DNA of 63,971 nucleotides from Limnohabitans sp. Rim8 (GTDB lineage Bacteria; Pseudomonadota; Gammaproteobacteria; Burkholderiales; Burkholderiaceae_C): NCBI GenBank assembly GCA_945897465.1, contig CAMDFK010000005.1, positions 91,848 through 155,818 of the forward strand, read 5' to 3'. Below the pieces are notes generated by a model, which saw nothing but the letters and a program-made list of their open reading frames with translations, was not told where the DNA came from and did not search any database. A program made the position numbers and the translations under genes. Every line of letters starts with the position of its first letter. Within the stretch, counting starts at the first letter, position 1. Positions 1-57,860 of this stretch are shown here, piece after piece.

Positions 1-432
1 AAAAGCTGCACCACCATCGCTGTGGTGGGCCTGTCGGCCGAGTGGCACCGGCCGAGCTATTTCGCAGCCAAATACATGCAGTCGCACGGCTTCAAGATCG
101 TGCCCGTGAACCCGCGCTATGCAGGCCAGGAGATCTTGGGCGAGACCTCTTACGCAAGCCTGAGCGACATCCCTTTCAAGGTGGACATGGTCGATGTGTT
201 TCGCCGCAGTGAAGACGTTCTGCCGATTGCAGAGCAAGCGGTGCACATCGGTGCGCGGTGTCTTTGGCAACAGCTGGGCGTGACCAACCCCGAAGCCGAC
301 GCCCTTGCCCGGCAAGCGGGCATGGATTCGGTGCACAACCGCTGCGTCAAGATCGAACACGCCCGGTTGTTTGGTGGCCTGAACTGGGTGGGTGTGAACA
401 CCGGCATCATCTCGGCACGTCGCTTGGTGTGA
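1..432 (+). CDS. CoA-binding domain protein (5' partial)
   Basis: The reading frame is open from the first base, so the true start lies upstream of the window. The visible 143 residues contain the VVGLSAEWHRPSYFAAKYMQ stretch, typical of the nucleotide-binding loop of YccU-type CoA-binding Rossmann proteins. They also contain the family's C-terminal block NRCVKIEHARLFGGLNWVG. The biochemical role of the family is poorly defined; binding of CoA or a related nucleotide is known for homologues. The gene lies 55 bases upstream of a truncated O-acetylhomoserine sulfhydrylase start. A second, 3'-only copy of this gene lies at 10211-10318, directly before the intact sulfhydrylase gene, so this pair marks the left edge of an inserted island. 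Confidence 0.8.
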   Translation, partial: KSCTTIAVVGLSAEWHRPSYFAAKYMQSHGFKIVPVNPRYAGQEILGETSYASLSDIPFKVDMVDVFRRSEDVLPIAEQAVHIGARCLWQQLGVTNPEADALARQAGMDSVHNRCVKIEHARLFGGLNWVGVNTGIISARRLV

Positions 433-487
433 GGGCTGTTTGTCTCTACCCATGTTCTTTTGAAAACCCACTGTCAACCCGAACACC

Positions 488-652
488 ATGACCGACCGCC
501 AATTCCACCCCGAGACCCTGGCCATCCACGCCGGGCAAATTCCCGATGCAGCCACGGGCGTCCGCGCCTCGCTGATCGATCCAGCCTCTGCGGTTGTGGG
601 GGGCACAGAACCCTTTCGTCCTTGGGCACAGTCCTTGAACATGGCCGCCTGA
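488..652 (+). pseudogene. Chimeric remnant: 5' end of O-acetylhomoserine sulfhydrylase fused to foreign 3' end
   Basis: The first 27 codons (starting MTDRQFHPETLAIHAGQ) are nearly identical to the start of the intact sulfhydrylase at 10367. Similarity stops abruptly near base 568, and the frame continues through about 27 unrelated codons ending in PWAQSLNMAA and a stop at 650-652. The product would be only 54 residues against about 427 for the enzyme, and it lacks the PLP lysine and all active-site parts, so it should not be functional. The 3' half may be the tail of a gene from the donor DNA. The stop lies 6 bases before the start of the rhodanese gene, so the fused frame may still feed translation into it. 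This is the left junction of the island. Confidence 0.75.
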
Positions 653-658
653 GTTCCC

Positions 659-2275
659 ATGACCGAACTTATTTCAGCGCGAGAGGCCAAGGCACGTATT
701 CACCAAAATCAAATTTGCGCGCTCTTGGACGTTCGCGAAGAAGGTCAGTTTGGAGAGGGGCATCCGTTTTTGGCGGTCAACTGCCCCTATTCGCATTTTG
801 AGCAATGGGTTTCTCGGTTGGTGCCCAGCACATGGGTGCCCACGATCCTGATCGATGATGGTGACGGTGTGGCCATGCGGGCCGCCGAGTTGATGGCAGT
901 GATGGGCTATACCCATGTATCTTGCGTGGACGGCGGCATACCCGCTTGGCGATCACAGGACCTGAATGTTTACAAAGGGGTTAACCTGCCAAGCAAAACG
1001 CTCGGCGAGTGGGTTGAACACCAAGAATCCATCCATCGCATCACCCCTGCCCAACTGGCCAATTGGCAATCGACCCAAACCCATTTTTATTTTTTCGATT
1101 GCAGGCCTCCGAACGAGTATTCAAAGATGTGTGTTCCCGGGGTCCAGTGCGTGCCCAATGGGGAACTGGCCCACCGCTTGTCAACGGTTGTCCAAGATGA
1201 CAGCACACCCATTGTGTTGACTTGCGCTGGTCGCACGCGGGGTCTGATTGGGGCCGCCGGCTTGAATCGCGTGGGCTTGGGCAATCCGGTCTATGCGCTA
1301 GAAAACGGCACCCAGGGTTGGACGCTGGCGGGTTTGTCCCTCTTGAGGGGTCAGACGCCTTCGGAACTTCCGACCATGGACGAATTCCATCTGTCAATCA
1401 GCCGGACAAAAGCCGTTGACCTGATCGAGCGTGAAGAGCTCAACTACATCGGTATCGATGGCTTCACCGAATTGGCGCACGACCGCAACAGAGTTGTGTT
1501 CTTGGTGGATGTTCGAAGCGCCACCGAGTACGCCGCAGGGCATTTACCCGGCGCCATCCATGCTTGGGGCGGACAGATCGTGCAGGCGCTGGATTTGTTT
1601 GTGGGGGTTCGCCATGCGACCGTGGTCCTGACCGACGATACCGGGCTACGTGCGGCATTAGCCGCCATCTGGCTAAGGTGCTTGGGTTATGAAACCTTCA
1701 TCATGAGGGACACCCTGGCACTCGATTTATCACCCCATTGGCGCCAGATGGCGCCCGTCCCGCCCATTGCACCCGCATTGCCGCTCATTGAGCCTATGCA
1801 AGCCGTGGGTTTGTGTCAATCTGGCCAAGTGCAGCTTGTGGACTTGCGCCATTCACAGGCGTTCCGACAGTTGCACATCCCGAATTCCATTTGGGCAAAC
1901 CGTGCCAATTTAGATCGGATTCCCAGAGGCAAGCCGCTGATTTTGTGCGCTGATCGGCCCGATTTGGCACAGCGAGTGGCCCAAGATCTGCAAGCCATGG
2001 GCCTGAGCGTGCAGGGTCAGATGAGCGGTGGTGTTGACGTTTGGCGGGAGGCCGGCATTTCGCTTGCAACATCGCCCATGGTGCCAACAGACGATCAATG
2101 CATCGACTTTTTGTTTTTTGTCCACGATCGGCACGACGGCAATTTGGAATCGGCCAAACGCTACCTGGAGTGGGAGCAGGGACTGATGGCGCAACTCGAT
2201 GACGATGAGCGGGCTGTTTTTCGCATGCCATCAGAACGGAGCGTGGCCCAGCAAACTTTCACCCAAAGGCCCTGA
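659..2275 (+). CDS. Four-domain rhodanese-like sulfurtransferase
   Basis: The 538-residue protein consists of four rhodanese-like domains at about 1-105, 125-230, 250-360 and 370-470, plus a conserved C-terminal tail rich in acidic residues. Domain 2 has a complete active-site loop with Cys189 (LTCAGRTRG), and domain 4 has Cys430 (ILCADRP). Domains 1 and 3 carry Asp at the corresponding place (IDDGDG near 66, TDDTG near 326) and are probably structural or binding domains. Known rhodaneses transfer sulfane sulfur to cyanide or thiol acceptors; the physiological acceptor here is not visible. The gene is the first of the island and its 3' end overlaps the convergent TauE/SafE gene by 17 bases. 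There is no signal peptide, so a cytoplasmic location is inferred. Confidence 0.85.
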   Translation: MTELISAREAKARIHQNQICALLDVREEGQFGEGHPFLAVNCPYSHFEQWVSRLVPSTWVPTILIDDGDGVAMRAAELMAVMGYTHVSCVDGGIPAWRSQDLNVYKGVNLPSKTLGEWVEHQESIHRITPAQLANWQSTQTHFYFFDCRPPNEYSKMCVPGVQCVPNGELAHRLSTVVQDDSTPIVLTCAGRTRGLIGAAGLNRVGLGNPVYALENGTQGWTLAGLSLLRGQTPSELPTMDEFHLSISRTKAVDLIEREELNYIGIDGFTELAHDRNRVVFLVDVRSATEYAAGHLPGAIHAWGGQIVQALDLFVGVRHATVVLTDDTGLRAALAAIWLRCLGYETFIMRDTLALDLSPHWRQMAPVPPIAPALPLIEPMQAVGLCQSGQVQLVDLRHSQAFRQLHIPNSIWANRANLDRIPRGKPLILCADRPDLAQRVAQDLQAMGLSVQGQMSGGVDVWREAGISLATSPMVPTDDQCIDFLFFVHDRHDGNLESAKRYLEWEQGLMAQLDDDERAVFRMPSERSVAQQTFTQRP

Positions 2276-3050
2276 ACAGAAGGTGAATCGCACTGAGGGC
2301 GATCATGCCGTCAATGATTCCATGCTGGACTTTTGTTTTGAGCCGGGTCGATAACCACTTGGCAAACCACACACCGGGAATGCTGGCAATCCCGCATGCC
2401 ACGGCGATCAAAACCAGTGGGTCTGGCAAGGCATCGAGTTGTCTGAACAACAACACTTTCACCAAATTCAGTGATGCGGCAATGGCAGCATCGTTGGCGA
2501 TCACTGCAGATGTAGTCATGCATGTGGCACTTAGGAACGCCAAAACCATGACACCAGAGCCAGGGACGATGGTGTTGATGAACCCATACACAAAAGAAAC
2601 AGGTCCCAGAGCCCACCAAATTTTTTGGGGTTTCCAATGAGCGACCGGGCCAGAGGCCGACATCCGGCGCCACGTTTTGATAATCAGCACCAGCAAAATC
2701 ACCAAACCCAATGCGCCCTCAAAAAAGCTGACCGGTATGTCCACATACAGCTTGGCCCCGAGCATGCTTCCAGGTGTTGCCAGCACAAGCATGGCCAACA
2801 CGATTTTGAGATTCAGTGATTGGAAAAAGTAAAAAATTCGACTGCCATTGTTGATCAACATGATGATGGCCAAAGCCGGCATCACGGCTTTGGCGCCGAC
2901 GATGGGGGCCAAGAAGCCGGCTATCACCAGTCCAGTCCCGGCACCGCTGAGCCCACCCAGTACCCCTGCAAGAAAGCAAACGGCGATGCCGCTGAGGAGG
3001 ATGGTGATGTCTGGCATGGGAAATCCCATTGGTCTGGATGGATGGAACAT
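2259..3050 (-). CDS. TauE/SafE family membrane exporter
   Basis: This is a 263-residue, strongly hydrophobic protein with about eight membrane segments. It has the two repeated glycine-rich halves typical of TauE/SafE (AVCFLAGVLGGLSGAGTGL near the N-terminus and SFVYGFINTIVPGSGVMVL in the second half). Members export sulfite, sulfoacetate or other small anions, or are annotated only as permeases. The start at 3050 has an AGGGG ribosome-binding sequence at proper distance; two inner Met codons (3029, 3017) are weaker choices. The gene is divergent from the tct operon and convergent with the rhodanese gene. That placement suggests removal of sulfite or a sulfonate produced by the island's pathway, which is inference. 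Confidence 0.8.
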   Translation of the reverse strand: MFHPSRPMGFPMPDITILLSGIAVCFLAGVLGGLSGAGTGLVIAGFLAPIVGAKAVMPALAIIMLINNGSRIFYFFQSLNLKIVLAMLVLATPGSMLGAKLYVDIPVSFFEGALGLVILLVLIIKTWRRMSASGPVAHWKPQKIWWALGPVSFVYGFINTIVPGSGVMVLAFLSATCMTTSAVIANDAAIAASLNLVKVLLFRQLDALPDPLVLIAVACGIASIPGVWFAKWLSTRLKTKVQHGIIDGMIALSAIHLLFRAFG

Positions 3051-3094
3051 GTGCCCCTAAAGCTCATTTCACCGCTTTCGGACACACCAACAAG

Positions 3095-3106
3095 ATCGTA
3101 TGCGAA
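3095..3106. promoter_or_regulatory. Second, imperfect copy of the palindromic operator
   Basis: ATCGTATGCGAA matches the perfect palindrome ATCGTATACGAT at 3287-3298 in 10 of 12 positions. It lies 45 bases upstream of the TauE/SafE start codon, so it could be the operator half for that divergent gene. A single 10/12 match could arise by chance. Confidence 0.35.
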
Positions 3107-3286
3107 ATCAACCGAGTTCCCGGCACAGGGTTTGCCGTTTTCGTTGCGTGTCTCAAGGGTCTGTCGGAAAAAATCCTGCGCTTAATTTTGAATTTGATGC
3201 ACAGACAGTAGGTTTTATCGGTCTAGACAAATTGAAGACTGCCCATCGCCAAACAAGGGTTTCCCCTTGGGTGCTGGGAGGAGTCG

Positions 3287-3298
3287 ATCGTATACGAT
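3287..3298. promoter_or_regulatory. Putative GntR (FCD-type) operator before tctCBA
   Basis: ATCGTATACGAT is a perfect 12-base palindrome. Its core fits the T-N-G-T ... A-C-N-A pattern bound by many FCD-subfamily GntR regulators. It lies 68 bases before the tctC start. No GntR gene is present in this window, so the regulator would have to be encoded elsewhere. Confidence 0.5.
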
Positions 3299-3365
3299 GA
3301 AAAACCGACAGCCATCTCATTTGTGATCACCTGCATCGGGCGAAATCCACTATCAAGGAGACAAA

Positions 3366-4325
3366 ATGAAATTTAAAAGCATGTTTTCAGGCCTTCTATG
3401 TACTGCGTTGTTAATCGGTACATCAGTGATGGCCCAGCAGTACCCTGTTTCTCGGGTTAATTTGGTCACGCACTCCAGCGCTGGCGGCGGTAGTGACGTT
3501 TTCTTGAGGGAGTTGATCAAGCACCTCCCCGCGGAAAAAATGAAAACCAACTTTACCGTTGAAAACGTCAGAGGCGGCAGCGGTGCAAAGGCCATGGCTT
3601 TTGTGGCTGGTGCGCCTGCCGATGGATCGGTGTTCTACGCCACCACCCCTACCCACATTCAGGTTTCTTTGCTGTCCAAGCCAGCCGTCAGCTACGAGGC
3701 TTTGGACCCGATCGTGATCGTGTTTCAAGATCCTCAACTTTTGTACACGCGCACTGAATCACCCTACAAAACCTTGGCCGATGTGATCACCTTTGCGCGA
3801 GCCAACCCGGGCAAGTCGCGTTGGGGCGCGTCCAACCCTGCTTCCGAAGAGCGTATTGCGATGGAGAAATTGTCTCGAGTGGCCAACGTGAAAGTCCCGA
3901 TCGTCAGCCATGAGGGTGGTGCAGACCAGATGATTGGTGTGCTGAACGGTACATTTGATATCGGCATCGGTGAGCCACAAGAACTCTTGTCGCAGATCGA
4001 GGCTGGGAAAATCCGTGTAGTTGCTACGCTGACCGACAAGCGCTTGGCGACTATGCCCAATGTGCCCACTGCCAAAGAGTTGGGTTTCAATGTGGTGGTG
4101 AAGAAATTCCGTGGGCTGTCGGGTCCCAAGGGCATCTCAGATGCGGCTGCCAAAGGCATACACGACGCCATCAAAGTGGCATTGGACAGTCCGGAGTACA
4201 AACAAATCTACACCAAGCAGGGCTTGGTCCCTGTTTTGATGAACCGTGCTGATTCCCGTAAATTCATGGGCGAATTCGTGACCGAAGTCACGGCTGACCT
4301 TAAAGAGCTCGGGGTCCTTAAATGA
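3366..4325 (+). CDS. tctC: Tripartite tricarboxylate transporter substrate-binding protein (TctC/Bug family)
   Basis: This is a 319-residue periplasmic binding protein with a signal peptide ending near VMA/QQ at about residue 24. The mature start YPVSRVNLVTHSSAGGGSD carries the Bug-family loop that contacts the ligand carboxylate. The middle of the protein (WGASNPASEERIAMEKL, then PIVSHEGGADQMIGVLNG) follows the family order. It captures an organic anion and hands it to TctAB. The ligand cannot be read from sequence, because Bug proteins bind citrate, dicarboxylates, amides and aromatic acids. AAGGAG lies 6 bases before the ATG. It is the first gene of a tightly packed operon through to the amidase, and the tctB start overlaps its stop (ATGA). 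Confidence 0.9.
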   Translation: MKFKSMFSGLLCTALLIGTSVMAQQYPVSRVNLVTHSSAGGGSDVFLRELIKHLPAEKMKTNFTVENVRGGSGAKAMAFVAGAPADGSVFYATTPTHIQVSLLSKPAVSYEALDPIVIVFQDPQLLYTRTESPYKTLADVITFARANPGKSRWGASNPASEERIAMEKLSRVANVKVPIVSHEGGADQMIGVLNGTFDIGIGEPQELLSQIEAGKIRVVATLTDKRLATMPNVPTAKELGFNVVVKKFRGLSGPKGISDAAAKGIHDAIKVALDSPEYKQIYTKQGLVPVLMNRADSRKFMGEFVTEVTADLKELGVLK

Positions 4326-4819
4326 AACCAGCCACCGCAGATTTTCTGTTGGGTGGAATCTGCTTGGTGGCAGGGGCAACCTATTACTCGGTTGCCTCGG
4401 TCATCCCCAAGAGCATGCTCTCTGACGAGATTGGTCCTGGTGGCGTCCCAGCAGCAGTGGGTTTGGCGGCCATGGTGGTTTCTGTCTTGATCATGCTCAA
4501 GTCGTTATTGGCGTGGAATCGCGACAGGCTTGCTGCCAAGGCGGCAGGTTCAGCCAACACCGATGAGGCCGAAGAGGAGGTTGGATCGCATTGGCTCAGC
4601 GTGATCACAGCCTTGGTTTTGGTGTTGTTGATTGTGATCCTGCCCATTTTGGGTTATTTGACTTCCATCTTTTTGCTCATCATGGTCTCTGCATTGCTGG
4701 CTGGCCACACCAAAAGCCTCAAGCTGGTGGCATTCTCGTTGACATCTTCGATGACCCTTTTTGTGATTTTTCAATTCGTCATGGGTGTCAAGTTACCCAA
4801 AGGCCCCTTTGGTTTTTAG
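4322..4819 (+). CDS. tctB: Tripartite tricarboxylate transporter small membrane subunit TctB
   Basis: The 165-residue protein has four predicted membrane segments (about residues 8-30, 40-62, 95-125 and 130-155). A charged loop rich in Glu and Ala lies between the first and second pairs, as usual for TctB. It forms the inner-membrane complex with TctA that imports the ligand delivered by TctC, driven by an ion gradient. Its start overlaps the tctC stop by four bases, which implies translational coupling. tctA begins 21 bases downstream. Confidence 0.85.
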   Translation: MKPATADFLLGGICLVAGATYYSVASVIPKSMLSDEIGPGGVPAAVGLAAMVVSVLIMLKSLLAWNRDRLAAKAAGSANTDEAEEEVGSHWLSVITALVLVLLIVILPILGYLTSIFLLIMVSALLAGHTKSLKLVAFSLTSSMTLFVIFQFVMGVKLPKGPFGF

Positions 4820-4840
4820 CTTTTAAAAATCCCCATCTCT

Positions 4841-6319
4841 ATGTTCGACACCTTTGTTCAGACCATTTTTGGTAGCTGGGCCGTTCCGACGGCATTTCTA
4901 GGCGTTTTGTGGGGCATTTTTGGTGGGGCTTTGCCAGGAATTTCACCCTCCATTGCGATGGCCCTGTTGTTGCCATTCACATTTGGTATGGATCCGACCT
5001 TGGCCATTATTTTGTTGGCCAGCGTGTATGTGGGTGCGGAGTACGGCGGTTCGATCCCCGCCATTTTGATTCGCACCCCGGGCACCAATTCCGCCGCCGC
5101 CACCACGTTGGATGGTTACGAAATGACCCGTCAAGGCAGAGCGGGTGAAGCGCTGGGTATCTCGTTAATTTCTGGCTTGATTGGGGGCTTGATAGGTTGG
5201 GCCGTGCTGGTCATGGCCACCGAACCACTCGCCGAACTTGCTTTGGCATTTACCTCCCCTGCCTATTTCTCGCTGGGTATTTTGGGCCTCTCGGTGATCG
5301 CGGGTTTATCGGGTGGTTCGCTGCTCAAAGGATTGATTGCCGTATTCATCGGCTTGGGAGTAGCGATGATCGGCACCGACCCCATTAGCGGAACACCACG
5401 GTTCACTTTGGGCAGTACCGATTTACTAGCTGGCATCAAACCCCTTTTTGCAATGGTGGGGCTTTTTGCTGTGGCAGAAATGCTCACCCAAATCCGGGAA
5501 CCATCGTGGGCCAAAGTTTCTGAAAAGATCAGCCGCCTGAAGTTGCCCGATTGGAAGATGTCCAAGCGCCTCTTCAAACCCCAAATGATTGGGTCGGTGG
5601 TGGGCACGGTCGAGGGTGTAACTCCCGGTGCTGGCGGTACCGTTGCGGCCTTCATGGCTTACTCTGAGTCCAAGCGTTGGTCCAAAAACCCAGAAGAATT
5701 TGGCAAAGGCTCACCAGAGGGCATTGCAGCCCCAGAAGCGGCCAACAACGTCGTGACTTCCACGGCCTTGGTGCCCCTGTTGAGCTTGGGTATTCCGGGG
5801 TCAAACTCGGCAGCCATTTTGCTGGGGGCCTTCATGATCCACGGCCTTCAACCAGGCCCGCTGCTGATGGTGAAAAGCCCCGAGGTCGTCCACGGCCTGT
5901 TTGCGGGCATATTTGTGGCCAACATCGCGATGCTGTTGTTGGGTTTGGTGATCTTGTCTCCTTGCATTTGGCTCGTCAACCGACCCAAACCTGTGATGAT
6001 TTCCATCATTTTGGCCTTGATCGTTTCGGGCGTTTATTCCGTTCACCAAAGCGTCTTTGACTTGGGCATTGTCTTGGCTTTCGGTGTTTTGGGTTATTTG
6101 ATGCGCTTGTTCACCATACCCATTTTGCCGATTGTCTTGGGAATTGTGCTGGGGTTCATGGTCGAGTCGAACTACCGACGCAGCATGTTGATTTCAGGCG
6201 GTGAGCACGGCATCTTCGTCGAAGACAAAGTTTCATTGTTGTTGCTGTGCCTTGCTGTTGGTTTGACGGCTTACACCTTGATCAAAGAATTCAACGTTTC
6301 CAAGAAAAGCTTAGCATGA
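4841..6319 (+). CDS. tctA: Tripartite tricarboxylate transporter large permease TctA
   Basis: The 492-residue protein has about 11-12 membrane segments. The family motifs are clear: GGALPGISPSIAMALLLPFT near residue 30, EGVTPGAGGTVAAF near 255 and a LSLGIPGSNSAAILLGAF block near 315. TctA is the ion-coupled transport subunit. With TctC and TctB it makes a complete TTT system, so the imported compound is probably a carboxylate used by the downstream enzymes. The next start codon overlaps its stop (ATGA), which ties transport to the catabolic genes. Confidence 0.92.
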   Translation: MFDTFVQTIFGSWAVPTAFLGVLWGIFGGALPGISPSIAMALLLPFTFGMDPTLAIILLASVYVGAEYGGSIPAILIRTPGTNSAAATTLDGYEMTRQGRAGEALGISLISGLIGGLIGWAVLVMATEPLAELALAFTSPAYFSLGILGLSVIAGLSGGSLLKGLIAVFIGLGVAMIGTDPISGTPRFTLGSTDLLAGIKPLFAMVGLFAVAEMLTQIREPSWAKVSEKISRLKLPDWKMSKRLFKPQMIGSVVGTVEGVTPGAGGTVAAFMAYSESKRWSKNPEEFGKGSPEGIAAPEAANNVVTSTALVPLLSLGIPGSNSAAILLGAFMIHGLQPGPLLMVKSPEVVHGLFAGIFVANIAMLLLGLVILSPCIWLVNRPKPVMISIILALIVSGVYSVHQSVFDLGIVLAFGVLGYLMRLFTIPILPIVLGIVLGFMVESNYRRSMLISGGEHGIFVEDKVSLLLLCLAVGLTAYTLIKEFNVSKKSLA

Positions 6320-7692
6320 GTTCCACCACCGATTCAATGCCTATAGCCACCCAATTGGCCAAGGTCATCACCCGTCTGGATCCAGCCCAATTCCCGGCGG
6401 CGTTGAAGACCACCGCTCAACACATGTTGCTGGACATCACGGGAATTTGTGTCTCGGCAAGGAACGAAGGCTATGTGAACTCGGCGATCAAGGCCTTCGA
6501 TGACGATGGGGCTTGTACCCTGATCGGGCACCCAACCAAGGGGTCGGTGTCCAGTGCCTGCGTCATCAATGGCATTGCATCCCATGGTGAGGATTTTGAT
6601 GACACCTACGAAGGCGGCCCAGTTCACGCAGGCGTGGTCATCATCCCCGCTTTGTTGGCGGCGGCAGAAAAACACAACTTCTCTGGTCCGGCGCTCCTCA
6701 AGGGTATCGCCGTGGGTGTGGAGGTGATGTGTCGTATGTGTGCGGTGGCCCCTACGAAGGTGCACAAAGCCGGTTTTCACCCAACGGCAGTGTTCGGTGC
6801 AATCGGTGCAACGGCGGGCATTGGTGCGGCGATGAACCTGTCGGAGAAACAACTGGTTGACGCTCTGGGGATCGCAGGCAGCATGTCCAGCGGCATCATT
6901 GAGTACTTAGCCGATGGGGCATGGACCAAGCGCATTCATCCAGGGTGGGCTGCGCAATCGGGCTACCGAGCAGCACGACTGGGTCAACAAGGTTTTGTGG
7001 GGCCACAAACGGTTTTCGAAGGTGATCACGGTTTCTTTTACGCTTTCGCACGCACGGCCGATGGCAACTTCAACGAGATGATGCGGGGCTTTGGCGAAGA
7101 GTGGAGAACAACGACCGTGGCTTTCAAACCCTACGCTTGTGGCACGATGATCCATCCCTACATAGATTGCGCACGACAGCTGCGCGACCAAGGATTGTCT
7201 TCTCAGGACGTTGAGAAGATCGAGTGCGGCACCGCCGAAGGCATCTTGCACCGGCTTTGGGAGCCGCTGCAAAGAAAGCAAACACCAGCCAACGGCTATT
7301 CGGCCAAGTTCAGCATCCCATTTGGGGTTGCTTTGGGCATCGTGAGAGGCAGCGCAGGCCTGAGCGATTACACCGAGGCATCGGTTAAGGATGCGGAGCT
7401 GCTTAGGGTTTCACAACGCGTGTCTTACGTGGTCGACCCGCAAAACCCCTACCCCAAGCAGTTCACGGGCCATGTTCGCGTTCATTTGAAAAATGGCCGT
7501 GTGCTGGAAGCCAGGCAAGGGTATTTCAGAGGCGGGGTTGATGCACCCCTGTCGGATCAAGATTTGCGCGCCAAATACCTTGCTAATTGCACCTTTGGCG
7601 GCTGGTCCGAATCGCTGGCTTCGCAAGTCGAATCGAAGTTGCAGTCTATTTTTGAAACCGATCGCATCGACTTGTCACTGTTGCAACAGTGA
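6316..7692 (+). CDS. MmgE/PrpD family protein (2-methylcitrate dehydratase-like)
   Basis: The 458-residue protein is of the MmgE/PrpD family, which includes 2-methylcitrate dehydratase, cis-aconitate decarboxylase and iminodisuccinate epimerase relatives. Typical stretches are INGIASHGEDFDDTYEGG near residue 90, then GFHPTAVFGAIGATAGIGAA and AWTKRIHPGWAAQSGYRAA. The ATG at 6316 overlaps the tctA stop. A longer frame from 6247 exists but would run 70 bases into tctA. Substrate is unknown. In TTT-linked catabolic clusters such proteins usually dehydrate, isomerise or decarboxylate the imported acid, so that role is inferred here. Confidence 0.85.
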   Translation: MSSTTDSMPIATQLAKVITRLDPAQFPAALKTTAQHMLLDITGICVSARNEGYVNSAIKAFDDDGACTLIGHPTKGSVSSACVINGIASHGEDFDDTYEGGPVHAGVVIIPALLAAAEKHNFSGPALLKGIAVGVEVMCRMCAVAPTKVHKAGFHPTAVFGAIGATAGIGAAMNLSEKQLVDALGIAGSMSSGIIEYLADGAWTKRIHPGWAAQSGYRAARLGQQGFVGPQTVFEGDHGFFYAFARTADGNFNEMMRGFGEEWRTTTVAFKPYACGTMIHPYIDCARQLRDQGLSSQDVEKIECGTAEGILHRLWEPLQRKQTPANGYSAKFSIPFGVALGIVRGSAGLSDYTEASVKDAELLRVSQRVSYVVDPQNPYPKQFTGHVRVHLKNGRVLEARQGYFRGGVDAPLSDQDLRAKYLANCTFGGWSESLASQVESKLQSIFETDRIDLSLLQQ

Positions 7693-7723
7693 CAGCCCAT
7701 CACAGCCAAGTTAGGAGTTTTTG

Positions 7724-8467
7724 ATGCAGAAAATTGCTCTGGTCACTGGCGCGGGCCGAAACATAGGTCGGGCGATGGCCTTGTCCTTGGCTCGAGATGG
7801 TTTTGATGTCGCTGTAAACGTACGGCAGTCGGTGACTGAAGGTGAAGAGGTGGTACGGGAAATCACCGCCATCGGACGCCAAGCCATTTTGTGTGTTGCC
7901 GATGTGTGCGATCAGGTCCAAGTTCAAAACATGTTTGACCGCATCGCAAAGGCTTGGGGTCGCTTGGATGTGTTGGTGAACAACGCGGCTGTCCGTGCCG
8001 AAACGGAGTTGGGTGACATCACGCTGAAAGAGTGGAGAAGGATTTTGTCGATCTGTCTGGATGGTGCTTTCCTGTGCGCGCAGTCGGCAACACCTTTGAT
8101 GCGCCAGGCCGGTGGCGGCAGCATCGTCAACATTGGGGGCCTCACCGCCCACACGGGCGCAGTGAACCGCCTTCACGTTGTCACGGCCAAAGCGGGACTC
8201 GTTGGATTCACCCGTGCGCTCGCAGAAGAACTGGCACCCCAATCCATCCGGGTGAATTGTGTTTCTCCAGGGTTGATTGACACCGTACGTATCGAATCGA
8301 GCGCGCCGGCGGCGCCTGTTCACCACAAAGCGCGCACGAATTTCATGAAACGTCGCGGCACGTCGCAGGAAGTGGCCGACGTCGTGTCTTGGCTGGCATC
8401 CAGTCAAGCGTCCTACGTGACCGGACAGGTAGTTCATGTCAACGGAGGGGCGTACCTTGGCAGCTGA
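7724..8467 (+). CDS. Short-chain dehydrogenase/reductase-like protein with degenerate active site
   Basis: The 247-residue protein is a classical-size SDR. It has the dinucleotide loop VTGAGRNIGRAMAL at 7-20, NNAAVRAE near 86-93, and the C-terminal block VHVNGGAYLGS. A GGAG ribosome-binding sequence sits before the ATG at 7724; a TTG three bases earlier is a poorer start. The canonical Ser-Tyr-Lys triad is not intact. The Ser position reads Gly139 (NIGGLT) and the Tyr position reads Val152 (HVVTAK); only Lys156 remains. It may bind NAD(P) without ordinary carbonyl reduction, or use other residues. It sits inside the tct-linked operon, and its end overlaps the amidase start. Confidence 0.85.
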   Translation: MQKIALVTGAGRNIGRAMALSLARDGFDVAVNVRQSVTEGEEVVREITAIGRQAILCVADVCDQVQVQNMFDRIAKAWGRLDVLVNNAAVRAETELGDITLKEWRRILSICLDGAFLCAQSATPLMRQAGGGSIVNIGGLTAHTGAVNRLHVVTAKAGLVGFTRALAEELAPQSIRVNCVSPGLIDTVRIESSAPAAPVHHKARTNFMKRRGTSQEVADVVSWLASSQASYVTGQVVHVNGGAYLGS

Positions 8468-9911
8468 GCACGATTTTTTATTTTTCCCCTTGGCCAAACA
8501 AGCGGAGCTTCTTCACACCAAACAACTTTCGCCTGTGGAGTTGGTCGAGGCCAGTATTCGACGTATCGAGCAAACCGATAAGACGCTGTGTGCGTGGATT
8601 TCGGTTGGGGCAGATCAGGCCATTGCAGCGGCTCGCCAAACCGAAGGGGATATTCTCAAGGGTCACATCCGCGGCCCATTGCACGGCATTCCCTTTGGCG
8701 TCAAAGACCAAATGCATGCGTTGGGCTTTAAAACCACCATGGGAACCCGGGTGTTGGACGAGCATGAGATGCAACCGCCCTTCACCACCACCGCCATTGA
8801 CCGCCTGACCACTGCCGGCGCCATTTTTCTGGGCAAACAAAACCTCCATGAATTTGGCAAGGGTGGGACATTGAACTTCCCGTATGGCCAGCCCAAAAAC
8901 CCGTGGGACATTGCCTACAACGCCTCCAGCACGTCCACGGGTTCTGGGATTGCCACGGCGGCGGGGCAGTGCAGCTTTTCGCTGGGTGAAGACACCGGTG
9001 GCTCGATACGCGGTCCGGCGTCTTGCAATGGCGTTTGCGGCATGCGCCCAACGCATGGCCGCGTGAGCCGCCATGGGGGCGTCATGGCGGCCTACACCAG
9101 TGACACCATCGGACCACTCGCCAGAACGGTGTTGGATTTGGCCTCGGTGCTCCAAGTGATTGCGGGACACGACCCCAACGATCCCCTGTGCAGCACACGC
9201 CCTGTGCCCAATTACCGAGCCGAACTTCACAACGCGTTCGAAGGACTCAAGGGCATGAAGCTCGCGGTTGTGAAAGAAATCGCGCGATTTGACGGCGTGC
9301 ACACCGAAGTCAGCAAGGCTTTCGAGCGCGCGGTCGACCAGCTGCGGGACTTGGGTGCCGAGATCCATGAAGTGTCTTTACCTTGGGCAAAATGGGCGGT
9401 GCCTCTGCAGATGTTGACGGCCGATGCCGATGTAGCCGCTTGGTTCCAGGGCAACTACCTCAAAGACCGGTACGAGCGGTTTGACCAAGGTACACGCACA
9501 CGCCTGATTGCATCGAGTTTGATTCCGGCTTCGGTTTACAGCCGCGCGATGCGCGCCAGAAGGCTGGTGCGCCAACAAGTCTTGGATGCGTTCAACCACT
9601 TTGATGCCTTGTTGACCCCAACCAACATCACCCCACCCAAGAAAATTGAAGACTCTCAGGAACGCGTCGACAGTCCAGAGGACATGGTGCCGAGGCTCAT
9701 CCAACGGCGCATCTCCCTTTACCCGTTCAGTTTGTCCAACGTGCCGGCCATGTCCATTCCGATGGGCTTTTCTGAAAATGGCTTGCCTTTGGCTTTGCAG
9801 ATTGCCGCCAGGCCGTTTGGTGAGTCAACGGTTTTTCGGGTGGGGCACGCCTATCAAATGGCCACACACTGGCACGAGCAACACCCCGACCTCAAGAGGA
9901 TCATCTCATGA
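8436..9911 (+). CDS. Amidase signature enzyme (AtzE/GatA-like)
   Basis: This is a 491-residue amidase-signature hydrolase. The catalytic Lys is Lys90 (FGVKDQ) and the nucleophile is Ser190 (EDTGGSIRGPAS). The segment that normally holds the cis-Ser, usually SSGGS, here reads SSTSTGSG with Thr166 at the expected spacing from Ser190, a mild departure. Such enzymes hydrolyse carboxamides to acid and ammonia; substrate is unknown. The start at 8436 overlaps the SDR gene by 32 bases and follows a GGA-containing stretch; a TTG at 8457 is an alternative. A GatC/AtzG-like small protein follows with a four-base overlap, as in AtzE-AtzG pairs, where the small subunit is needed for stability or activity. 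Confidence 0.9.
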   Translation: MSTEGRTLAAEHDFLFFPLAKQAELLHTKQLSPVELVEASIRRIEQTDKTLCAWISVGADQAIAAARQTEGDILKGHIRGPLHGIPFGVKDQMHALGFKTTMGTRVLDEHEMQPPFTTTAIDRLTTAGAIFLGKQNLHEFGKGGTLNFPYGQPKNPWDIAYNASSTSTGSGIATAAGQCSFSLGEDTGGSIRGPASCNGVCGMRPTHGRVSRHGGVMAAYTSDTIGPLARTVLDLASVLQVIAGHDPNDPLCSTRPVPNYRAELHNAFEGLKGMKLAVVKEIARFDGVHTEVSKAFERAVDQLRDLGAEIHEVSLPWAKWAVPLQMLTADADVAAWFQGNYLKDRYERFDQGTRTRLIASSLIPASVYSRAMRARRLVRQQVLDAFNHFDALLTPTNITPPKKIEDSQERVDSPEDMVPRLIQRRISLYPFSLSNVPAMSIPMGFSENGLPLALQIAARPFGESTVFRVGHAYQMATHWHEQHPDLKRIIS

Positions 9912-10102
9912 TCGTGAGCAAAGAACTCGTCAAGTCACTCTGCGATATGCAGGGACTTCGTGTGCCCGAATCGGAAATGGAAAACGTCGCGATCCGGCTC
10001 AGCACCTGGATGAGTGCTATGGAGCAAATCGAAGCGGACATGGGAGATTTGATTCAGACAGTCGACCCCATTCCTCCCGTTTTCCCCAAAGAGGACATCT
10101 AG
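9908..10102 (+). CDS. Small amidase-associated subunit (AtzG/GatC-like)
   Basis: The 64-residue protein starts with an ATG that overlaps the amidase stop codon. A predicted N-terminal two-helix region (EMENVAIRLSTWMSAMEQIE) is followed by an extended proline-rich tail (VDPIPPVFPKEDI). This is the layout of GatC and of AtzG, the partner of the AtzE amidase. In those systems the tail wraps around the amidase. No catalytic residues are expected. This is the last gene of the island; the right junction starts about 110 bases further on. Confidence 0.75.
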   Translation: MIVSKELVKSLCDMQGLRVPESEMENVAIRLSTWMSAMEQIEADMGDLIQTVDPIPPVFPKEDI

Positions 10103-10210
10103 TTCACACAAGCCATCCTTTGGATGGGCTAACCTGTCCGTGTTGGTCCACTGGGCACGCTCGGCACACCGCAGCCCAAACGGCACTGGGCTAAGCTGCT
10201 GGTGGGTTGG

Positions 10211-10318
10211 GATCCGGTGAGTAACCGCTGCGTCAAAATCGAGCATGCCCAGCTGTTCAGTGGCCTGAACTGGGTAGACATGAACACCGGCATCATCTCC
10301 ACGCTGCGCCAGATGTGA
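10211..10318 (+). pseudogene. 3' remnant of a CoA-binding protein gene
   Basis: About 35 codons (NRCVKIEHAQLFSGLNWVDM and the tail to a TGA) match the C-terminal end of the CoA-binding gene at 1-432. Upstream of about 10211 no similarity remains and the frame has no plausible start. The two copies share roughly four of five bases, so they are diverged copies and not a fresh duplication. The remnant lies 48 bases before the intact sulfhydrylase, the same order and similar spacing as at the left edge. It therefore marks the right junction of the island. Confidence 0.75.
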
Positions 10319-10366
10319 TGGCTCATTGCCTCGCTGCAGACTTTTTTTGTTTTTAACCCCAACACC

Positions 10367-11650
10367 ATGACCGACCGCCAATTCCACCCAGAGACCCTGG
10401 CCATCCACGCCGGGCAATTTCCCGATGCAGCCACGGGCGCACGCGCCCTGCCCATTTACCAAACCAGCAGCTATGTGTTTGACAGCGCCGAGCATGCGGC
10501 ATCGCTGTTCAACCTGCAAACTTTTGGCAATGTGTATTCGCGCCTGAGCAACCCCACGGTGGCGGTGCTCGAAGAGCGGGTGGCCGCACTCGAAGGCGGG
10601 CGTGCTGCCGTGGCCAGTGCCTCGGGCATGGCGGCAGAAACCATGGCGCTGATGACCATCTTGCAATCGGGCGACCATGTGGTGGCCGCCGGGGCTTTGT
10701 ACGGCGGCTCGGTCACGCTGCTGGCCGTGAGCTTGGCCAAGTTCGGCATCGAAACCACCTTTGTGGACGCGACAAAACCCGAAGCTTTTGCCGCCGCCAT
10801 GCGACCCAACACCCGCGCGGTGTATGCCGAAAGCTTGGGCAACCCCAGCATGGTGGTGCTGGACATCGCGGCCGTGGCCGAGGTGGCCCATGCGCACGGC
10901 GTGCCACTCATCATCGACAACACCGTGCCCAGCCCGCTGCTGTGCAACCCTTTGGCGCTGGGCGCTGACATCGTGGTGCATTCGGCCACCAAATATTTGG
11001 CGGGCCACGGCACCACCTTGGGTGGTGTGGTGGTGGAAGGCGGCAGATTCCCTTGGGACAACGGCAAGTTTCCGGGGATGACCGAGCCCTCGCAGGGCTA
11101 CCACGGCGTGAAGTTTTACGAGACCTTTGGCGACTTTGGCTTTGCCATGCGCTGCCGCATGGAAAGCTTGCGCGTGTTCGGCGCATCGCTCAGCCCCATG
11201 AGCGCGTGGCAGATTTTGCAAGGCGTCGAGACCCTGCCACTGCGCATGCAAAAGCACTGCGACAACGCTTTGGGCGTGGCGAAGTTTTTGCAGGCCGATG
11301 CGCGTGTGGCTTGGGTCAATTACCCCGGCCTGAGTGACCACCCGCAGCATGCCCTGATGCAACGCCAGATGCGCGGCGCTTCGGGCCTGCTGTCGTTTGG
11401 TGTGAAAGGCGGTTTGGCGCAAGGCGTGACCTTCATCGAGTCGGCCCAGTTCATGAGCCACCTGGTCAACATCGGCGACACCCGCACCCTGATCAGCCAC
11501 CCGGCCAGCACCACCCACCGCCAGCTCGACGACGCGCAGCAACTCGCCGCAGGCGTGCCGCCTGACATGGTGCGCATCTCAGTCGGCCTGGAGAATCTGG
11601 ACGACATCCTGTGGGACATCGACCAGGCGCTGGACAAAGCCAGCCGCTGA
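10367..11650 (+). CDS. metY: O-acetylhomoserine aminocarboxypropyltransferase (sulfhydrylase)
   Basis: The 427-residue protein is a Cys/Met-metabolism PLP enzyme. Its N-terminus (ETLAIHAGQFPDAATGARAL), the loop YSRLSNPTVAVLEERVA, the SASGMAAETMAL loop near 85 and the PLP lysine in HSATKYLAGHGTTLGG near 210 all fit O-acetylhomoserine sulfhydrylase of about 425-430 residues. It makes homocysteine from O-acetylhomoserine and sulfide, a direct route to methionine. A truncated copy of its 5' end lies at 488. Any link with the rhodanese of the island would be through sulfide supply, but the gene order seems to be ancestral and not part of the island. Confidence 0.92.
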   Translation: MTDRQFHPETLAIHAGQFPDAATGARALPIYQTSSYVFDSAEHAASLFNLQTFGNVYSRLSNPTVAVLEERVAALEGGRAAVASASGMAAETMALMTILQSGDHVVAAGALYGGSVTLLAVSLAKFGIETTFVDATKPEAFAAAMRPNTRAVYAESLGNPSMVVLDIAAVAEVAHAHGVPLIIDNTVPSPLLCNPLALGADIVVHSATKYLAGHGTTLGGVVVEGGRFPWDNGKFPGMTEPSQGYHGVKFYETFGDFGFAMRCRMESLRVFGASLSPMSAWQILQGVETLPLRMQKHCDNALGVAKFLQADARVAWVNYPGLSDHPQHALMQRQMRGASGLLSFGVKGGLAQGVTFIESAQFMSHLVNIGDTRTLISHPASTTHRQLDDAQQLAAGVPPDMVRISVGLENLDDILWDIDQALDKASR

Positions 11651-11665: not shown

Positions 11666-12574
11666 TCAAGAAGTTCTGTCCAAAAAAGGCAGCACCTGCG
11701 CCAGCAGGGCGTGGGGTGCTTCTTCGGCGATGTAGTGACCACAAGGCAGGGCCTGGCCCGAAACTTGTTCGGCCACTTTTTGCCATTCCTTGAGCGGCTC
11801 GAAACAGCGCTGCACCACGCCTAGCTCTCCCCACAACACCTTCAAGGGCATTTGCAGCAGCCGCCCTTGCGCGCTGTCTTCCCGGTCGTGTTGCAAGTCG
11901 ATGCCCGCCGAGGCGCGGTAGTCTTCGCACAGGCCGTGCGCTGCGCCCGGCAGGGCCAGGCAGCGCTGGTATTCGGCCAAGGCCCGCGCATCAAAAGGGG
12001 CCAGCCCCGCGCTGCGCTTGCCCATGACGTCGGTGACATAGGCCGCCGGGTCGGCCTCGATCAAACGCTCGGGCAGGGGTTGCGGCTGGATCAAAAAGAA
12101 CCAATGCCAGTAGGCGCGGGCAAAGGCTTCAGAGGTCTGTTCGTACATGGCCAAGGTGGGCGCAATGTCGAGCAACACCATCTGCCGCACCGCTTGCGGA
12201 TGGTCCATGCCCAAACGGTGCGCCACGCGGGCACCCCGGTCGTGCGCCAGCACATGGAACCGGTCAAAGCCCAAGTGTTGCATCAGACCGATCTGGTCTT
12301 GCGCCAGGCTGCGTTTGGCGTAAGCCGCGTGGTCTGGCCCGCCCTCAGGTTTGGACGAGTCACCATACCCACGCAAATCCGCCGCCACCACGGTGAAATG
12401 CTGCGCCAGCGTGGGGGCCACCTTGTGCCAGATGGCCAGGGTCTGTGGGTGCCCATGCAGCAGCAGCAAACCCGGGCCATGCCCACCCACCATGGCCGAG
12501 ATATGCAGGCCTGTGGCCACCTCGATCTGGTGGTGCGTGAAACCGGGAAACAGGGGCAAGGCAGGGTGATTCAT
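11666..12574 (-). CDS. Alpha/beta hydrolase resembling fluoroacetate dehalogenase
   Basis: The 302-residue protein has the key residues of fluoroacetate dehalogenases. These are nucleophile Asp112 in HDRGARVAHR with Arg113 and Arg116, Asp136, His280 (CGHYIAEE), and the halide pocket His157-Trp158 (YWHWFF) with Tyr219 (CEDYRA). These enzymes hydrolyse haloacetates to glycolate and halide in the cytoplasm. The annotated start at 12574 (MNHPALPLFPGF) fits family length; an upstream in-frame start at 12625 adds 17 unrelated residues. The gene is alone on the minus strand, convergent with metY and divergent from yebC. Family members also act as epoxide or other ester hydrolases, so true dehalogenation is probable but unproven. 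Confidence 0.75.
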   Translation of the reverse strand: MNHPALPLFPGFTHHQIEVATGLHISAMVGGHGPGLLLLHGHPQTLAIWHKVAPTLAQHFTVVAADLRGYGDSSKPEGGPDHAAYAKRSLAQDQIGLMQHLGFDRFHVLAHDRGARVAHRLGMDHPQAVRQMVLLDIAPTLAMYEQTSEAFARAYWHWFFLIQPQPLPERLIEADPAAYVTDVMGKRSAGLAPFDARALAEYQRCLALPGAAHGLCEDYRASAGIDLQHDREDSAQGRLLQMPLKVLWGELGVVQRCFEPLKEWQKVAEQVSGQALPCGHYIAEEAPHALLAQVLPFLDRTS

Positions 12575-12714
12575 GGGCAGCAGCGTGTCGGTGCGGTCAT
12601 TATTGCCCTGCAAGCACCAAGCCACTGTGACCTTCGAGACCCGTTATGGCCCCCAACTGGCCGAGGCCAAGCGCTTAAACTCTTCGCTTTGATCCCCCAA
12701 TACAAGGAAGACCC

Positions 12715-56584: not shown

Positions 56585-57202
56585 TTATTTGGAAATGGCC
56601 AGCTTGATGCCAAAGCCCACCAGAAAAATACCCGCCACCTTTTCAAGCACCTGCCCCACTTTGGGGTTGGCCCGCATGCGCTCGGCCAAGTGATGCGTCA
56701 ACAGGGTCATGCCCAAACCGTACAAAAAGGTCAAAGCGGCGATGGTGGCCGCCATGACCGCAAAGCTGATCAAACCCAGATGGGTTTGCGGGTCAACGAA
56801 CAGTGGAAAAAATGCCATGTAAAAAACAATCGCCTTGGGGTTGAGCAAGGTGATGGCCAAGGCCTGCTGAAAATACTGACGGGGCCGAATATTCAAGACG
56901 GGCGCATCGCCGGGTTTGGCCATCAACATCTTCCAGCCCAACCAGGCCAAGTACACCGCACCCAGCCATTGGATGGCCACAAAGGCCGCCGGGTACGTGG
57001 TCAACACCGCCGCCACACCCGCCACGGCCAGCCACATCAGCACCTGATCACCCGCGATCACCCCCAGTGTGGCCATGAGCCCGCCAGCCACGCCCCCCTT
57101 GCTGGTGGACGTGATGAGGGCCAGGTTACCCGGCCCGGGAATGGCCAGAAACACCACAATGGCGGCTACAAATGCACCGTAATCCGAAATGCCAAAAAAC
57201 AT
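56585..57202 (-). CDS. LysE family amino acid exporter (second copy)
   Basis: The 205-residue membrane protein has six segments and LysE/RhtB hallmarks: FLAIPGPGNLALITSTSKGG near the start, WLGAVYLAWLGWKMLMAKPG near 70-90 and LLNPKAIVFYMAFFPLFVDP near 120-140. It resembles the adjacent protein at 57246 closely over its full length, so the two are tandem paralogues. Members export basic or other amino acids; the substrate is unknown. It lies 15 bases before parA. Confidence 0.88.
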   Translation of the reverse strand: MFFGISDYGAFVAAIVVFLAIPGPGNLALITSTSKGGVAGGLMATLGVIAGDQVLMWLAVAGVAAVLTTYPAAFVAIQWLGAVYLAWLGWKMLMAKPGDAPVLNIRPRQYFQQALAITLLNPKAIVFYMAFFPLFVDPQTHLGLISFAVMAATIAALTFLYGLGMTLLTHHLAERMRANPKVGQVLEKVAGIFLVGFGIKLAISK

Positions 57203-57245: not shown

Positions 57246-57860
57246 TTATTTGGCCACCACCATCCTGAGTCCAAAACCAATCAGGCACACACCGGCCAAC
57301 TTTTGCAACCATGACGTCCACTTGGGATTTGCACGGATGCGTTCGGCCATGTGGTGGGTCACCCAAACCACGCCAAAACAGTAGGCAAAACCCAGTACGG
57401 CAATTGTCCCCGCCATCACCCCAAAAGTCACCCACCCTTGGTGATGGACCGGATCGATGAACTGCGGAAAAAACGCCAGATAAAACATAATCGCCTTGGG
57501 GTTAAGCAGGGTGATGAGCAATGTTTCCCGAAAATAATACCCGGGCGTGATTTGCAAACCAGGGCCCTGCCCAGATTTGGACAACAACATCTTGCCGCCC
57601 AGCCAAACCAAATAGGCCGCGCCCGCCCACTGCAGGGCGGTGAACAAAGACGGATAGGATTTGAGCACTGCAGCCACACCGGCCACCGTGAGCCACAACA
57701 AAATCTGATCGCCCAAAAGCAAGCCCAAAACCGAGGCCAATCCGCCCGCCATTCCCCCTTTGCTGGCCGAGCTGATCAAGGCCAAGTTACCGGGGCCGGG
57801 CAAGAACAAAAGCAGGACAAAGGCCGCAGCGAATGCGCCGTAATCCGAGATACCAAACAT
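57246..57860 (-). CDS. LysE family amino acid exporter (first copy)
   Basis: The 204-residue six-segment membrane protein starts MFGISDYGAFAAAFVLLLFL. It shares GPGNLALISSASKGGMAGGL and LLNPKAIMFYLAFFPQFIDP with its neighbour at 56585. The pair arose by tandem duplication. It is transcribed after rsmG, from which it is separated by 90 bases that carry a parS-like site. Export of an amino acid is inferred from the family. Confidence 0.88.
   Translation of the reverse strand: MFGISDYGAFAAAFVLLLFLPGPGNLALISSASKGGMAGGLASVLGLLLGDQILLWLTVAGVAAVLKSYPSLFTALQWAGAAYLVWLGGKMLLSKSGQGPGLQITPGYYFRETLLITLLNPKAIMFYLAFFPQFIDPVHHQGWVTFGVMAGTIAVLGFAYCFGVVWVTHHMAERIRANPKWTSWLQKLAGVCLIGFGLRMVVAK

Follow-up and report, generated by a model that had tools for sequence, protein, structure and literature searches.

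An apparently acquired gene block combining a TctCBA importer, an MmgE/PrpD protein and an amidase in Limnohabitans sp. Rim8

Within a stretch of 63,971 nucleotides of Limnohabitans sp. Rim8 (contig CAMDFK010000005.1, positions 91,848 to 155,818), which as a whole is referred to as the window, nine adjacent genes encode a four-domain rhodanese, a TauE/SafE-family exporter, the three components of a TctCBA transporter, an MmgE/PrpD protein, a short-chain dehydrogenase/reductase (SDR), an amidase-signature hydrolase and a GatC/AtzG-like small subunit. The entire segment from about 574 to 10209, rhodanese and TauE included, looks like it was acquired as one insertion. We tentatively regard it as an island for the uptake and breakdown of an amide-bearing acid via TctCBA, MmgE, SDR and amidase, a reading to which we attribute slightly less than an even chance and whose sulfur-related part is less certain. 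Loci and genomes used for comparison carry L and G numbers.

Gene content and operon layout

Positions and typing are listed in Table 1. All gene products which a preliminary description of this DNA had named, from rhodanese to small subunit, are encoded by open frames, and all except the small subunit are typed by Pfam. With TctC, TctB and TctA the block contains every component of a tripartite tricarboxylate transporter. From tctC (3366) to the small-subunit gene (10102), seven forward-strand genes follow one another, either overlapping or separated by at most 28 bp; in order, the six junctions are a 4-bp overlap, 21 bp, a 4-bp overlap, 28 bp, a 32-bp overlap and a 4-bp overlap. These overlaps and short spacings on one strand bear out the earlier proposal that the genes from tct to the amidase form one operon. 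TauE is transcribed divergently from tctC across a gap of 315 bp (3051-3365). The Rfam scan gave no match, and the scan for promoters and terminators gave no signal above that of shuffled sequence.

Table 1. Position and typing of the block, its junctions and the flanking host genes (window coordinates).
Feature	Position	Strand	Basis
Presumed inserted segment carrying all nine genes	574..10209 (ends approximate)		Uninterrupted site in congeners, junction repeats, GC/GC3
Junction repeat, left copy: end of CoA-binding gene and first part of metY	324..568	+	
Junction repeat, right copy: truncated CoA-binding tail, then intact metY start	10210..10447	+	
CoA-binding protein gene, host	22..432	+	Pfam CoA_binding_2, 125 bits; start probably lies before the window
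Four-domain rhodanese	659..2275	+	Pfam Rhodanese, 4 stretches
TauE/SafE-family membrane exporter	2259..3050	-	Pfam TauE, 83 bits vs cut-off 32.6
TctC periplasmic solute receptor	3366..4325	+	Pfam TctC
TctB small permease subunit	4322..4819	+	Pfam TctB
TctA large permease subunit	4841..6319	+	Pfam TctA, 487 bits
MmgE/PrpD-family isomerase/lyase, distinct clade	6316..7692	+	Pfam MmgE_PrpD_N and _C
SDR oxidoreductase	7721..8467	+	Pfam adh_short_C2; TTG start, ATG follows at 7724
Amidase-signature hydrolase (AtzE/GatA-like)	8436..9911	+	Pfam Amidase, 332 bits
GatC/AtzG-like small subunit, 64 residues	9908..10102	+	Similar partners in L021, L022, L023
O-acetylhomoserine sulfhydrylase-type gene metY, host	10367..11650	+	Name given by eye

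Probable insertion at the CoA-binding/metY junction

The block is flanked by a direct repeat of about 245 bp, which in a repeat search shows 78% identity over 324-446 and 95% over 476-568; over 246 columns the two copies are 79.3% identical. Of the 23 other congeners searched, 16 have an orthologue of metY (86-98% identical), and in all of these the CoA-binding gene stands directly upstream of metY with nothing between the two. In none of these 16 does the CoA-binding/metY locus contain a rhodanese match, and none of the 23 congeners yields one at E<=1e-60. Likewise, amidase matches in 35 genomes of the genus, 13 of them less than 90% complete, do not exceed 251 bits (36% identity), compared with 1127 bits for the window's own. 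The GC content amounts to 0.551 in the inserted segment and to 0.610 in the rest of the window, and GC at third codon positions (GC3) ranges from 0.62 to 0.67 in every gene of the block (mean 0.75, sd 0.06, lowest 0.56 in the 32 other genes of the window). No individual block gene is an outlier in this respect; the signal consists in the evenly low run across the block. Since the junction repeats, the uninterrupted congener site and GC3 all point to one insertion, rhodanese and TauE probably arrived together with the operon. The preliminary description had correctly placed these two genes outside the operon, yet they appear to lie inside the same inserted segment, which reading the sequence alone had missed.

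We envisage that 574-10209 represents a horizontally acquired catabolic island which would have entered the CoA-binding/metY junction in one piece, probably by recombination through junction sequence shared by both partners. Cargo placed between direct junction repeats fits an integrated circle carrying a diverged junction copy, and it is from this arrangement that we infer the mechanism. The two CoA-binding tails of the repeat differ by about 22%, a difference which suggests that one junction copy may stem from another species. The island would document an acquisition whose uninterrupted congener site and junction repeats both survive.

The alpha/beta hydrolase gene at 11666-12625 was considered as a further island gene and rejected, for it follows metY in eight of the 16 congener loci; the other eight gave no match within the 1.5 kb examined. 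In L068 (genome G132, 4454-9273), which belongs to another family of the order, a CoA-binding gene and metY are located about 2 kb from an SDR-MmgE-TctC cluster; perhaps this is the same insertion neighbourhood as in the window, or chance.

The MmgE/PrpD protein

Both MmgE/PrpD Pfam domains score above the gathering threshold (196 and 107 bits vs 32.1). In a tree of 58 rows, which took in 11 of the 27 loci of the order (L033 was left out and the rows L070_18996 and L076_7576 were dropped), the window protein falls within a clade of 30 rows supported at 100/100. Its closest relatives there derive from L064, L065 and L068, loci of the same order each of which harbours TctC, MmgE and SDR. Compared with solved structures, a profile of this clade matches IDS epimerase best (189 bits), followed by entries of cis-aconitate decarboxylase/IRG1 (157-161 bits), whereas the match to solved 2-methylcitrate dehydratase is far weaker (31-35 bits).

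In an alignment of ten rows His90, Asp93, His155, Lys205 and Lys271 are invariant, so that the His, acid and Lys residues of the active site are in place. The base pair of IDS epimerase is formed by His99 and Tyr145, the latter acting as second base (PMC7347537). The catalytic His of IDS epimerase corresponds in the alignment to window residue His104, in whose place three clade members have Arg. While the His of the base pair is thus kept in the window protein, the Tyr145 column is occupied by His150, as it is by His in L142-L145. In addition, the window protein has Pro where IDS epimerase has an Arg, two positions ahead of its catalytic His. With IDS epimerase and (S)-(R)-methylsuccinate isomerase the window protein shares the two-domain family as well as conserved dicarboxylate-binding and enolate residues; it differs from them in forming a separate clade and in having TctCBA and SDR rather than CoA-pathway genes as neighbours.

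The known MmgE/PrpD members have a 1,4-dicarboxylate core in common, and an enolate mechanism has been proposed for them (PMC12290011). Because known family members share this core, the substrate of the window protein presumably contains it as well. Proteins of this family are common and mostly uncharacterised, with 50,344 hits in 21,713 organisms of GTDB (PMC12290011), and from among them the present analysis picks one clade of strong support that recurrently has an importer and an SDR as partners and with which an amidase co-occurs.

The amidase and its small subunit

Lys90, Ser167 and Ser190 of the amidase are invariant in four aligned orthologues and constitute the Lys-cisSer-Ser triad, the motif of amidase-signature enzymes. 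The earlier assignment to the amidases is supported, the catalytic residues being intact, while AtzE-like is a loose label and membership in AtzE itself was rejected, as the protein remains below both NCBIfam AtzE cut-offs (277.4 vs 461 bits and 264.4 vs 425.75 bits). The gene of the small subunit adjoins that of the amidase. No Pfam or NCBIfam model matched the small subunit, and a PDB search with it gave nothing convincing. It is 38-55% identical to its partners in the three other loci listed in Table 1, and of the five members aligned, one is hit by the GatC model (E 3.3e-4). With its predicted fold (predicted local distance difference test score 88) GatC chains occupy ranks 1 to 5 in the PDB, the best E-value of 0.14 not being significant. 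AtzG is a non-catalytic subunit without which AtzE is insoluble, and AtzE and AtzG are thought to derive from GatCA (PMC6219798). Because AtzG is non-catalytic and needed for the solubility of AtzE, the small subunit likely plays a similar, structural role. As in the AtzE-AtzG 1-carboxybiuret hydrolase of Pseudomonas sp. ADP, an amidase-signature enzyme is encoded next to a small subunit, here putatively GatC-like; the operon, however, is another one, and in the window the amidase gene precedes that of the subunit, in contrast to the known order atzDGEHF.

A methylsuccinate-isomerase-type cluster of Azospirillum (L145, 12569-14190) contains an open reading frame of 78 residues and an amidase gene placed like an AtzG/AtzE pair. 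We rejected the two as counterparts of the window pair, the amidase being 31% identical and the small frames having no significant similarity.

Recurrence of the Tct-MmgE-SDR core

At E<=1e-150, 28 of 399 order genomes and 7 of 398 phylum genomes have the MmgE clade, the window's own being counted in each. Apart from the window we examined 45 loci of this clade, nine from plasmids, 27 from the order, six from the phylum and three from genomes with AtzE; six of the 27 are shorter than 10 kb, and 37 of the 45 extend 5 kb to both sides of MmgE. The order TctC-(TctB)-TctA-MmgE-SDR occurs in seven of them (L025, L028, L029, L030, L032, L128 and L132) and in an eighth, L033, which is cut short. An SDR 47-56% identical to that of the window is encoded within about 4 kb of MmgE in 21 of the 45. 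Conserved co-occurrence, for which the preliminary description had proposed to search, is thus found for the TctC-TctA-MmgE-SDR core. With the core order recurring in seven loci, the loss of synteny in all other genomes, which that description had named as part of a refutation of its model, is not what is observed.

The nine plasmid records, two of which are strains of the one species Paracoccus yeei, stand apart with MmgE identities of 46-52%, the next one reaching at most 36% (among the best 25 of 742 plasmid records with a match). These clusters of Paracoccus, Neorhizobium, Phyllobacterium and Rhizobium resemble the window block in TctA (57-61% in eight of the nine, the TctA of genome G720, not one of these plasmids, being 64% identical to that of the window), in SDR (47-52% near MmgE in eight of the nine), in TctC (43-54% in seven alphaproteobacterial loci) and, for five loci and a truncated sixth, in gene order. 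They differ in that AtzE and the small subunit do not occur in the plasmid stretches examined, and several of them carry extras such as MmgE paralogues, tartrate dehydrogenase, PdxA-like, chromate transporter or AbrB genes. Determining the substrate of one receptor could hence allow it to be assigned to clusters in alpha-, beta- and gammaproteobacteria.

An alpha/beta hydrolase gene is found near the MmgE clade in L127 (14902-15885), L132 (3854-4849), L028 (18493-19425) and L029 (20756-21706). The four proteins are 74-79% identical among each other and far more conserved than MmgE itself, their hosts being distantly related.

Co-occurrence of amidase and MmgE

Counting the window's own, a single one of 398 phylum genomes has the amidase type at E<=1e-150; among 399 order genomes, 12 have it at 1e-130. 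Setting aside G390 and G391 (458-473 bits; all others at least 727) leaves nine other AtzE genomes of the order, eight of which carry the MmgE clade, compared with 27 of 398 overall (Fisher 1.3e-9); with the two counted, the clade is present in nine of eleven. It is present, too, in all four genomes found by a pattern scan, one of which (G800) duplicates G040. In two of these four, L021 (Natronospirillum) and L024 (a metagenome-assembled genome of the Rhodobacteraceae), AtzE and MmgE are separated by no more than about 5 kb, the AtzE of L024 being cut by the contig end.

Proposed pathway and alternatives

The following route would accommodate what is observed: the genes present and their operon layout, the signs that the block was inserted as a unit, the conserved residues of amidase and MmgE/PrpD protein and the recurring core. 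TctCBA would import a carboxylated compound, on whose substituted four-carbon dicarboxylate core the MmgE/PrpD enzyme would form an enolate, epimerising the core or eliminating its substituent. The SDR would oxidise or reduce the product, and amidase and GatC-like subunit would hydrolyse the amide to ammonia and an acid entering central metabolism. With less certainty, TauE might export sulfite or another sulfur oxyanion, and sulfane sulfur might be handled by the rhodanese. Import followed by catabolism, as put forward in the preliminary description, fits the operon layout and is plausible; substrate class and reaction order, as well as ammonia release and all sulfur chemistry, are what we infer. 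In agreement with the earlier statement, a limited search of the open-access PMC literature revealed no characterised pathway described with this set of genes.

A number of observations weigh against a single pathway. All the named genes together were found in no genome other than the window's, so that conservation of the full set is not supported. Six of the nine genomes with AtzE come from a single family (f47) and five from a single genus, which means that the Fisher test treats them as more independent than they are. In L021 and L024, AtzE is accompanied by Tct genes of another type (TctA 33-34%). Finally, no MmgE is present in the examined stretch of eight further AtzE loci of the order, for which reason the amidase may be a separate function. 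One acquired operon might accordingly unite two independent functions, TctCBA-MmgE-SDR acting on a hydroxy- or tricarboxylate and amidase plus small subunit on another amide, which we consider unlikely though by no means negligible. It agrees with the surroundings of the amidase in these eight loci, namely TctC-type receptors in all eight (25-35%), the small subunit in seven and an FMN dehydrogenase in three, and with the lack of AtzE in the examined stretches of six phylum loci of the MmgE clade as well as of the nine plasmids; at odds with it are the near-constant presence of the MmgE clade in AtzE genomes, the vicinity of both genes in L021 and L024 and the overlapping frames of SDR and amidase in the window. 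A methylsuccinate/itaconate-type or 2-methylcitrate pathway incidentally carrying an amidase appears very improbable. Although the window protein belongs to the MmgE/PrpD superfamily and is 34-36% identical to proteins of MaoC-MmgE-acyl-CoA dehydrogenase clusters, those proteins fall outside the 100/100 clade, and neither CoA transferase nor MaoC nor acyl-CoA dehydrogenase is typed by Pfam in the island. We rejected methylsuccinate isomerase since the island has no acyl-CoA dehydrogenase gene and the window protein lies outside the corresponding tree group (L142-L145), a group assigned from gene context rather than by assay, with L144 and L145 located in such MaoC-MmgE-acyl-CoA dehydrogenase clusters; 2-methylcitrate dehydratase was rejected on account of an NCBIfam equivalog score of 52.6 bits at a cut-off of 950. 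What suggests kinship with the cyanuric acid/biuret pathway (atzDGEHF) is that, like the AtzE of AtzEG (PMC6219798), the AtzE-related amidase has a small partner, here putatively GatC-like; but the amidase is under both AtzE cut-offs, no island gene is typed as atzD, atzH or atzF by Pfam or NCBIfam, and a carboxylate importer, MmgE and SDR have no place in that pathway, which makes such kinship exceedingly unlikely.

The sulfur question can be weighed separately, as it concerns one part of the proposed pathway and overlaps the other readings. The rhodanese has its best solved match in PDB entry 1yt8 (E 2.6e-80); the exporter is a member of the TauE family, from which sulfite transport is predicted. 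In Advenella the cluster of mercaptosuccinate dioxygenase includes a rhodanese gene (PMC5373536), and sulfite export of the TauE type has been proposed for Advenella (PMC5373536) and for a sulfofucose-degrading Paracoccus (PMC12421959). The island shares rhodanese and TauE genes with such organosulfur catabolism; in contrast to it, no island gene is typed by Pfam or NCBIfam as a known desulfonating enzyme, and the window genome has no thiol-dioxygenase match (cysteine-dioxygenase family, PF05995). The strongest argument for sulfur is the probable joint arrival of rhodanese and TauE with the operon; the suspicion voiced in the preliminary description is strengthened by the common insertion but hardly by the comparative counts. 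In a first count over 14 other genomes with the MmgE clade, TauE was found within 5 kb of MmgE in three (G440, G521 and G798; expected 0.27, P 0.002), ComA next to the clade in two of the four ComA-carrying genomes (P 4e-5) and a rhodanese within 6 kb in one (G720, P 0.03). Located 5.4 kb from MmgE, the G720 rhodanese is more similar to that of the window (47%) than any other homologue seen. ComA denotes the phosphosulfolactate-synthase family; the ComA proteins tested pass Pfam and reach 138 and 120 bits with the archaeal ComA equivalog model (cut-off 280). A recount with profile models over all 45 loci gave TauE in three (L125, L127 and L128), ComA in three (L126, 8036-8887; L127, 13089-13880; L026, 7061-7846) and rhodanese in one (L132), the chance expectation from the per-genome rates of the first count being about 0.9, 0.03 and 0.1, respectively. 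Several points detract from these figures: the 14 genomes were selected once their neighbourhoods were known and omitted 22 genomes of the order and nine plasmid records; none of the 27 order loci contains any of the three genes in the recount; the TauE and rhodanese counts are near chance, and ComA, which alone stands out, had initially attracted attention in two of its three loci; the TauE proteins of these clusters are only 25-31% identical to that of the window; and no ComA was found in the window genome, nor, as stated, PF05995. Altogether the counts lend weak to moderate support, and we consider sulfur chemistry in this island possible but somewhat doubtful. Conversely, nearly an even chance may be given to the absence of sulfur chemistry, with TauE as an exporter of some anion, for instance a carboxylate, and the rhodanese as a passenger of the island. 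This would be in line with the breadth of the TauE family (3-16 copies in each of 15 genomes), with the lack of TauE, ComA and rhodanese beside most of the 45 loci and with the tartrate dehydrogenase, PdxA-like and isopropylmalate-type dehydrogenase genes of several clusters; it is opposed by the entry of rhodanese and TauE together with the operon, by the recurrence of ComA in three loci and by the rhodanese of G720. Going further, the MmgE/PrpD-SDR core might as a whole be an organosulfur module which handles a succinate-type acid bearing sulfur at C2, either a sulfonate or the S-(2-succino) adduct of a thiol with an amide, MmgE acting at that carbon and TauE, chromate-type transporters or rhodanese disposing of sulfite or sulfane sulfur; taken jointly, these assumptions are improbable. 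YxeQ of Bacillus is, as we presume, an MmgE/PrpD protein. A hint in this direction is that the S-(2-succino)cysteine operon of Bacillus includes YxeQ as a member of unknown function (PMC9706529).

Further observations

A plasmid search with TauE gave no match at E<=1e-20, and in Sodalis sp. dw_96 a TauE gene is located about 2.6 kb from an AtzE frame, not beside MmgE. Another context of the amidase, noted by eye, is found in L161 (8049-13257), where an FMN dehydrogenase gene is followed by AtzE, an AtzG-like subunit, TctC and an asparaginase-like gene. Elsewhere in the window, two adjacent and similar membrane-protein genes (56585-57202 and 57246-57860), LysE-like by eye, probably represent a tandem duplication.

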